Positions 18,221 to 19,243 of a DNA stretch of 21,759 nt are shown here, one piece after another. The position numbers and the translations under genes were made by a program. Each line of letters opens with the position of its first letter. Positions within the stretch are counted from its first letter, which is position 1. The notes beneath the pieces were generated by a model. That model was not told the origin of the DNA, did not search any database, and saw nothing but the letters and a program-made list of their open reading frames with translations. The DNA comes from a virus. The stretch is from the IMG/VR virus record IMGVR_UViG_3300021964_000636, positions 1 through 21,759 of that record; one strand, given 5' to 3'.

Positions 18221-19243
18221 ATGATTGATATCTTATCTCCCATGATCAAGAAGTTTCTTCCGTTTGCTAAACAAAGGATGGGCTTCAATATGCCTCCGAG
18301 ATTGTTTTTAAAAGGCGACTCGGAAAATGCAAACAACCCACTTGGTAAAACTGCTTATTATGATCCGGGGCAAAAATCAATTACTTTGTATATCACAGGG
18401 CGACACCCAAAAGATATAATGAGGTCTTTATCTCACGAATTAGTTCACCATTCCCAGAACTGTCGTGGGGAATTTGACAATGCTTCCGAGATGGGTGAAG
18501 GATATGCTCAGAATGACGAACACTTACGTGAAATGGAACGTGAGGCTTATGAAGTCGGTAATATGTGTTTCCGAGATTGGGAAGACAGCATAAAACAGAC
18601 TATTTATTTCGAACATCTACAAAAAGGAGATAAAAAGATGTCTACAAAAGATTGGAAAAACAAAGAGATCTCCACTTTGCTCTCAGAAGCATGGGGTTTC
18701 AAATTTAACACTTTAGAGGAGTTCAACGAGTTCAACGGAGCCGGTGAAGTCCAAGAGGAAGAGGTCGAGGCTGCTGCCGAGACTGTCGAAGAGTCCGAAG
18801 AGACTGTTGAGGAAGCCGAAGAGGCTGTTGAAGAGTCTTTAGTTACTGAAGAAGAGGAAGAAGAAGAAGAAGAAGAGGAAGAAGAGGAGATGAACGAAGC
18901 AGTTGATACTGGTGTCTTCGCTCCCAACCATTATTGTGTACATCATGGCGGTGTTTCCAGAAACGGTTCTATCGAGATGGCTGAAGCTGTTGGTCATAAC
19001 TTTAACGAAGAGCTTGGTAAGGTCACCCACTATGATATGAAGTTTGAAGACGGCACTATCATGGAAGGCGTTCCCTTCGAAGATATTCAGGTTACCAATG
19101 CTAGCTTAGCCGAGGCTCATAAGGGTCACATGGCTGGTAAGAGAGACGACGAAGAGAAAGAGGAGATGGAAGAGTCCACCACCGATACAGAAGCTCTTCG
19201 CGAGGCAATCAAAGCTGTTCTTACAAAGCACCTTAAGGGCTAA
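18221..19243 (+). CDS. HExxH (zincin) protein with acidic, poly-Glu tail; candidate protease/scaffold
   Basis: A 340-residue protein. Residues 1-135 form a small zincin-like domain: SLSHELVHHSQN gives H72-E73-x-x-H76, and Glu residues in LREMEREAYE (103-111) could supply the third zinc ligand. Residues 141-170 (TKDWKNKEISTLLSEAWGF) are a conserved phage segment. Residues 177-223 are very acidic, including 14 Glu in a row (210-223). The C-terminal part has a strand-rich domain (HYCVHHGGVSRNG, THYDMKFEDGTI, GVPFEDIQV) and a final helix (ALREAIKAVLTKHLKG). ATG 18221 has no ribosome site, but an in-frame ATG at 18638 (Met140) has a strong one. Acidic domains joined to a protease are known in phage head assembly (lambda C/Nu3), hence the suggested role; this is inference. 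Confidence 0.75.
   Translation: MIDILSPMIKKFLPFAKQRMGFNMPPRLFLKGDSENANNPLGKTAYYDPGQKSITLYITGRHPKDIMRSLSHELVHHSQNCRGEFDNASEMGEGYAQNDEHLREMEREAYEVGNMCFRDWEDSIKQTIYFEHLQKGDKKMSTKDWKNKEISTLLSEAWGFKFNTLEEFNEFNGAGEVQEEEVEAAAETVEESEETVEEAEEAVEESLVTEEEEEEEEEEEEEEMNEAVDTGVFAPNHYCVHHGGVSRNGSIEMAEAVGHNFNEELGKVTHYDMKFEDGTIMEGVPFEDIQVTNASLAEAHKGHMAGKRDDEEKEEMEESTTDTEALREAIKAVLTKHLKG
18638..19243 (+). CDS. Possible nested product: acidic C-terminal protein from an internal start
   Basis: ATG 18638 is in frame with the HExxH gene (its Met140), with AAGGAG at 18624-18629, 8 bases upstream, and an A-rich spacer; this is far better than the site of the full-length start. It would yield a 201-residue protein, MSTKDWKNKEISTLLSEAWG then the poly-Glu segment and the C-terminal domain, without the zincin part. 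This is the arrangement of lambda Nu3 scaffold within gene C. It could instead be a relic of a fused gene. Confidence 0.5.
   Translation: MSTKDWKNKEISTLLSEAWGFKFNTLEEFNEFNGAGEVQEEEVEAAAETVEESEETVEEAEEAVEESLVTEEEEEEEEEEEEEEMNEAVDTGVFAPNHYCVHHGGVSRNGSIEMAEAVGHNFNEELGKVTHYDMKFEDGTIMEGVPFEDIQVTNASLAEAHKGHMAGKRDDEEKEEMEESTTDTEALREAIKAVLTKHLKG
18848..18889 (+). repeat. GAA/GAG codon run (14 Glu)
   Basis: Fourteen consecutive Glu codons in the acidic tail, a purine-only tract prone to slippage; length differences between related phages would be expected here. The tract ends GAGGAG just before another in-frame ATG (18890). Confidence 0.8.

Follow-up and report, generated by a model that had tools for sequence, protein, structure and literature searches.

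In bacteriophage lambda, the scaffold protein Nu3 arises from an internal start in the same frame as the gene for the serine protease C. PMC8508860 describes a single gene for C and Nu3, which overlap, and PMC3224144 describes an interaction between the two. A different precedent is Vibrio phage XM1, whose gp46, a Spartan-like metalloprotease, is suggested as the prohead protease in PMC10457771.

The locus described here lies in the window, i.e., the whole 21,759-bp virus record that was analysed. Like lambda C/Nu3, it has a same-frame internal start that would yield the C-terminal, non-catalytic product of a peptidase gene. In contrast to lambda, the peptidase part is an HExxH zincin-like domain rather than a serine protease, the relatives of the window carry a separate S77 prohead protease and have the HExxH gene outside the head cluster, and the nested product is a putative scaffold at most. 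With XM1 gp46 the locus shares a phage metalloprotease comparable to Spartan. The likeness is drawn from description; gp46 is the proposed prohead protease according to PMC10457771, whereas the relatives of the window have an S77 one. No report of the nested gene appeared in literature searches that covered listings and the cited passages.

The reading frame and its internal start

The open reading frame (ORF) at 18221-19243 on the plus strand codes for 340 aa (Table 1). As anticipated in the original prediction, an HExxH domain (HELVH at residues 72-76) is joined to an acidic domain with a run of exactly 14 Glu, and the calculated pI is 6.3 for residues 1-139 and 4.19 for residues 140-340. 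Shine-Dalgarno (SD) strength was expressed as the duplex energy (E) with the 16S tail (anti-SD), and sites with E ≤ -6 kcal/mol were considered strong. By this measure, the full-length start at 18221 indeed has no good ribosome site (only -1.9 kcal/mol). Met140 (18638) is preceded by the expected, well-placed AAGGAG 8 nt upstream; its energy of -8.7 kcal/mol falls within the range of the other SD-led genes of the window. Initiation at this site would give the proposed 201-aa acidic product with the same C-terminus as the full-length ORF. Predicted RNA accessibility is similar around 18221 and 18638 and is therefore uninformative on the choice of start.

Table 1 Features of the nested locus and its neighbours (positions refer to the window)
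Feature	Position	Strand	Description or evidence
Full-length ORF, fusion of HExxH domain and acidic protein	18221..19243	+	340 aa; own ATG with weak SD
HExxH (zincin-like) domain, residues 1-134	18221..18622	+	Alignment A1, model, zincin neighbours
HELVH metal-binding motif, residues 72-76	18434..18448	+	Sequence; kept in relatives
Glu106, candidate third metal ligand (E-x-x-A-Y)	18536..18538	+	No variation in alignment A1
Internal SD AAGGAG, 8 nt 5' of ATG	18624..18629	+	-8.7 kcal/mol; three codon registers; synonymous-codon bias
Nested acidic protein from Met140	18638..19243	+	201 aa, pI 4.2; SD and ATG in relatives; separate gene in L058, L060, L076
N-terminal helix of nested protein ending LLSE/A, possible T4-type targeting/prohead-protease site	18638..18691	+	Conservation in alignment A2, model, motif count
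Run of 14 Glu codons, low-confidence, probably disordered region	18848..18889	+	Sequence, model
Small beta domain, Tudor/SH3-like, nested residues 102-146	18941..19075	+	Model pLDDT, Foldseek; part of family only
C-terminal helix, low confidence	19178..19237	+	Model
Neighbour gene, 83 aa, N-terminus MSLDKQWRDFLNES (targeting-sequence-like)	19339..19590	+	Sequence
Neighbour gene, 659 aa, cytidylyltransferase-like domain	19590..21569	+	PF01467, E 1.7e-4

Small genes like the 83-aa neighbour are also found downstream in four relatives (L036, L058, L060, L076), and large genes like the 659-aa neighbour in all six relatives inspected. Elsewhere in the window, the gene at 762-1985 encodes a DUF2201 putative metallopeptidase with a VWA-like domain, and that at 9794-10528 a trypsin-like (Trypsin_2) protein, another peptidase-like gene. 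The 451-aa protein encoded at 10925-12280 matches DUF5661 and PHROG families of unknown function. No convincing match in Pfam or PHROG was obtained for the 827-aa protein encoded at 12603-15086, and no Rfam family matched in the window.

To place the internal site in a comparative frame, relatives were collected in three scans. The first retained 80 of 112 relatives, giving 81 sequences with the window, of which 3 are split and the other 78 have both halves fused in frame. Two further scans were added, one of which returned at least 520 relatives (80 of them kept). The total of 232 loci including the window contained many duplicate fetches of the same contigs and was reduced to 141 distinct relatives by dropping identical 200-nt stretches. 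The HExxH domain was found by HMM in all 232 loci, and the sorting into fused and split forms is likewise HMM-based.

The internal ribosome site proved to be kept in close relatives, and down to 37% identity. Of the 55 distinct upstream sequences in the first set, 53 had E ≤ -6 kcal/mol at the internal Met. The exceptions, L060 and L076, are relatives in which the HExxH ORF stops and a separate gene follows downstream; L058 has the same organization without a Met at that place. All 81 sequences (80 relatives plus the window) have an ATG at the internal site with a GGAG 7-11 nt upstream of it. The most telling point is the register: across lineages, AAGGAG is encoded in three ways, as Lys-Gly-Asp/Glu (KG[DE]), Arg-Arg (RR) or Lys-Glu-Asn (KEN), meaning that the nucleotides are kept while the peptide changes. 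Among the 129 relatives with an in-frame SD and ATG, the GGAG registers are represented 104, 18 and 6 times, and one relative is without GGAG. Synonymous codon usage is biased: the Gly codon at the SD is GGA in 43/43 cases, as compared to 384/1298 elsewhere in the same frames, Arg-Arg is written AGGAGA in 12/12, and Lys-Glu is AAGGAG in 2/2. As controls, a further two Mets conserved in the domain were used; a strong SD preceded them in 0/49 and 1/49 sequences. The invariant Met of alignment A3 exists by construction, as starts were chosen, and has no evidential use. On a tree of 63 distinct domains, which has limited resolution, five labels for fused or split state and register changed 6 times (minimum 4).

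Could the SD-like sequence serve the peptide, ribosome pausing or frameshifting instead of initiation? Codon shuffles were as strong in 21-33% of cases for KG[DE] (21% for the window), in 1.6-4.2% for Arg-Arg and in about 8% for KEN, and for the weakest fused case (L061, -6.4 kcal/mol) in 40%. With the KG[DE] peptide, a good SD is thus fairly likely to arise from the amino acids alone, and KG[DE] cases taken by themselves are weak proof. Given the shuffle rate in the window, the case for the start comes from the comparison of relatives and not from the single sequence. However, the three registers, the ATG at the right distance past GGAG throughout the first set, the synonymous bias and the split relatives that begin a gene at that very site all argue against a purpose other than initiation, which we consider extremely unlikely. 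From this comparison, the internal start at 18638 is well supported and almost certainly real. A weak upstream SD is usual and not universal: the best full-length start reaches E ≤ -6 kcal/mol in 13 of 57 distinct relatives, so that low production of the fusion would not be general.

Fused, split and alternative forms among relatives

A continuous ORF with an in-frame SD and ATG at the internal site is present in 129 of the 141 distinct relatives. The other 12 comprise 3 continuous ORFs without the SD, 8 that stop and are followed by a downstream SD and ATG, and 1 that stops without them. Of the 8, L246 and L241 continue with apparently unrelated genes, the candidate in L220 is only 46 aa long, and L153 is possibly frame-shifted. 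In the split forms L058, L060 and L076, the HExxH domain ends in a stop and the partner gene follows immediately, beginning at the same place; its SD falls within the last part of the HExxH gene.

In the three continuous ORFs without an internal SD, which serve as natural controls, the HExxH domain runs into other domains: LysM and M23 in L217 (3947-5266), PG-binding and GDSL in L221 (3956-5899), and LysM (below cut-off) and DUF2272 in L232 (3947-5365). At its C-terminus, each of these proteins has a W-K-N helix containing R-L-L-x-E-K-F. Downstream in L221 and L232 lies a separate gene that begins with a helix of the nested-protein type. The split and alternative forms make the nested gene look like half of a pair whose fusion is the rule but has exceptions, and the reading of the window ORF as a two-gene pair in fused form is well supported. 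The end helices look exchanged in a part of the family: in L225, L234, L242, L244 and L249, the internal SD and ATG are kept, with an L-R-x-x-I-R type helix at the internal start and one of the L-M-x-K-W (W-K-N) type at the C-terminus.

The existence of split relatives would also fit an internal start left over from an ancestor with two genes, with the fusion as the only product that matters. The SD and ATG are nevertheless kept throughout the 129 relatives while the linker peptides diverge, which is not expected of a leftover, and we regard this explanation as very improbable.

Only two relatives were found in genome contigs. One, on an Acidiferrobacteraceae MAG contig (L253), has the KEN form of the nested SD; the other, on a Prochlorococcus single-cell contig (L254), is without such an arrangement. 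In Flavobacterium phage immuto (L082:10279-13002), the HExxH domain is part of a protein of 908 aa that carries the annotation NMN adenylyltransferase and is encoded upstream of terminase and gp20. No AAGGAG start like that of the window was found there, and one later Met has an energy of -6.4 kcal/mol. The immuto protein also contains a second HExxH-like sequence (HEIEH) further along. Cyanophage S-SRM01 encodes a weakly similar HExxH protein as a separate gene preceding a cytidyltransferase gene. In cyanophage S-8S53, an 834-aa protein, encoded 3' of a cytidyltransferase gene, weakly matches part of the beta domain of the nested protein (37 residues, E 0.06). A protein search of named phages with the 273-aa downstream neighbour of a relative gave no match.

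The HExxH domain and the question of capsid maturation

Alignment A1 (40 rows) revealed invariant H72, E73, H76, E106, A109 and Y110, and HExxH with a downstream E-x-x-A, a candidate for the third ligand, occurs in 141/141 distinct relatives. The model of the domain has a pLDDT of 86 and a pTM of 0.82. Its top structural neighbours in VIA are all zincins or zincin-like metalloenzymes, among them Wss1 (Z 7.8, the best), IrrE/PprI (7.6) and SPRTN (6.9), and with ArdC the range is 6.4-7.8; Z below 8 may reflect a mere common arrangement, and a shared fold at that level is silent on function. Foldseek alone gave no match at E ≤ 0.001 for the models of the HExxH domain and the nested protein, and no relative of the window protein was found by sequence in the PDB (best E 0.6). 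The most frequent Pfam match is DUF6647, seen in 35 of 40 members at E ≤ 0.1; the window scores 18.3 and 21.0 bits, below the Pfam cut-off of 24.1. The domain hence resembles DUF6647, Wss1/SPRTN and IrrE zincins in HExxH plus a downstream Glu ligand, the minimal zincin arrangement, and is unlike them in its sub-cut-off Pfam score, its middling Z and its lack of a sequence relative in the PDB. From the model and the conserved residues, it is highly likely to adopt a zincin fold and is predicted to be a metallopeptidase; at the level of the SPRTN/Wss1 or IrrE family, the evidence consists of the middling Z values (6.6-7.8), with no sequence match.

The metallopeptidase had been proposed as a capsid-maturation protease with the nested protein as scaffold, i.e., an analogue of lambda C/Nu3 with a new catalytic class. 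The gene arrangement is formally the same, and the nested product is acidic, partly helical and mostly of low model confidence. The idea is not wholly new, as a Spartan-like metalloprotease is already proposed as the XM1 prohead protease in PMC10457771. However, a T4-type S77 prohead protease (PF03420, gp21) was identified in 12 of 20 relatives' contigs, including 8/8 contigs of at least 130 kb; the 8 contigs without it are records of 73-114 kb. In the 12 contigs with both genes, which may be permuted, the S77 gene is 67-100 kb from the HExxH gene, and in the sole cluster that was annotated (L088) gp21 stands together with terminase and portal. The gp23 protein was found in 8/8 relatives searched. 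The presence of S77 gp21 and gp23 indicates that capsid maturation in this group has its usual T4-type protease; gp21 and gp23 of the window itself lie outside the record, and their presence is deduced from relatives.

The gene directly after gp21 is, by position, a candidate for the true scaffold. In the relatives examined, the HExxH gene is not beside portal and capsid genes. In addition, fusions to LysM, M23, PG-binding, DUF2272, GDSL and nucleotidyltransferase domains are unexpected for a maturation protease. Given an S77 gp21 encoded at a distance, a metalloprotease of capsid maturation was rejected as the main reading, and we judge it very unlikely. What holds of the lambda comparison is the same-frame nested gene with its own ribosome site and shared C-terminus (129/141); the protease role does not hold, with S77 encoded elsewhere.

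Another possibility is that the metallopeptidase acts unpackaged in the infected cell or envelope, where it might attack DNA-protein crosslinks or a host regulator, or help in wall passage or lysis, and that the nested protein is an adaptor, inhibitor or chaperone. The nearest folds (Wss1/SPRTN, IrrE/PprI, ArdC), the relatives with peptidoglycan-type domains and the Tudor/SH3-like domain in the window's nested product are consistent with such roles. Against them stand the middling Z-scores, the targeting-like N-termini on neighbour genes, and the recurrence of a W-K-N/L-L-x-E helix module at the C-termini of peptidoglycan-type fusions and at the N-termini of the acidic proteins, which suggests a shared destination for both. 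We consider this explanation possible, if unlikely.

The nested acidic protein and a putative place in the prohead

The model of the nested protein is poor overall (pLDDT 60, pTM 0.34). The predicted order is helix, acidic low-confidence region, Tudor/SH3-like domain, low-confidence region and helix, of which only the beta domain is confident (pLDDT about 84-92; Foldseek probability up to 1.00, yet E 0.066 or worse). Nested products of the family have a median pI of 4.6; among 127 complete ones, 28 have a pI of at least 5, with a maximum of 9.3. A PHROG scan of 32 nested proteins found no scaffold family and gave scattered matches, e.g., to phrog_764 cytidyltransferase and, for one member, to a terminase small subunit (E 0.023).

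At the N-terminus, W6, K7, N8, E10, L14, L15 and E17 are conserved in alignment A2. A hydrophobic-x-x-hydrophobic-hydrophobic-x-E element is present in 87 of 104 distinct nested N-termini, which share descent and carry aliphatic instead of aromatic residues; the hydrophobic/LxE pattern is absent from the other 17, and related sequences are not independent. A similar element recurs in other proteins of these phages. Among 854 distinct ORFs, 49 copies of the motif [FWY]xxF[LIV]xE fall within the N-terminal 35 residues (29,890 positions), as against 8 copies at 183,602 other positions, a 38-fold enrichment in which shared descent inflates the counts. Of the 49 N-terminal copies, 32 begin at the eighth residue. 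Residues 4, 7, 8 and 10 of the T4 targeting sequence have the same spacing, as given in PMC9026906, and the recurrent N-terminal tag looks like a T4-type capsid-targeting sequence on many cargo proteins.

Tags of the MKLLLENW-x-x-F-L-N-E type stand on unrelated proteins in the window and L002-L081 (HAD-like, NUDIX-like and DnaJ-like as judged by eye). In the window itself, they are seen in a NUDIX-like protein (10531-10968) and the 83-aa gene product (19339-19590), with a variant in a HAD-like protein (16240-16845).

The nested protein resembles T4 core proteins of the IPIII type in its short N-terminal hydrophobic-x-E element, with spacing as given in PMC9026906, and in the S77 protease and gp23 present in the window's relatives. 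Its element has aliphatic residues where the tag of neighbouring proteins is aromatic, and the protein differs from the IPIII type in being made inside another gene, in its putative packaging and in the Tudor-like domain found in part of the family. The N-terminal regions of gp23 contain LLRE near residue 60 in 6 of 8 relatives (the other 2 had no ORF of the set size). The resemblance of LLRE to the LLSE of the nested protein makes cutting by S77 plausible, no more.

Our best guess is that the metalloprotease is a cargo, and that the abundant acidic protein acts as partner or as packaging adaptor to it, perhaps within the core of the head. Ribosomes starting at 18638 on AAGGAG would produce the 201-aa acidic protein, and others starting at the weak 18221 site would produce the same protein with the HExxH metallopeptidase domain at its N-terminus, a scheme well supported by comparison. 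The ratio of starts may then yield much acidic protein and little fusion; we infer both products and their ratio from sequence. Through the shared part, a small amount of enzyme might be tethered to the acidic protein and assemble along with it as cargo. Less surely, assembly could take place in the prohead core of a T4-like phage, a location proposed because the nested helix ends LLxE like the gp23 propeptide and a T4-type serine protease could cut there; the acidic protein may accordingly be a prohead-core protein. With similar reserve, the metallopeptidase would be a packaged or envelope-acting enzyme and not the maturation protease. The location of the HExxH gene far from the head genes in relatives, the nested products that are not acidic, the N-termini lacking the hydrophobic/LxE pattern, the poor model of the nested protein and the lack of a PHROG scaffold match speak against the head-cargo model, and we give this two-product, head-cargo explanation as a whole an even chance.

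A more specific proposal is that a widespread family of T4-like phages loads a metallopeptidase into its head by gene architecture alone, in which a low-copy fusion and a high-copy acidic core protein share a targeting/processing element. Cleavage by the serine prohead protease would then release the enzyme within the capsid, ready to be delivered to the next host. We advance it tentatively, as a rather unlikely scenario.

The use of one SD in three codon registers provides an unusually clean comparative case of a nested gene that ordinary annotation would miss, in a family with at least 520 relatives in one scan. If its products are packaged, the arrangement would allow the dose of an enzyme in the capsid to be set and would give a role to a metallopeptidase that is common in these phages.
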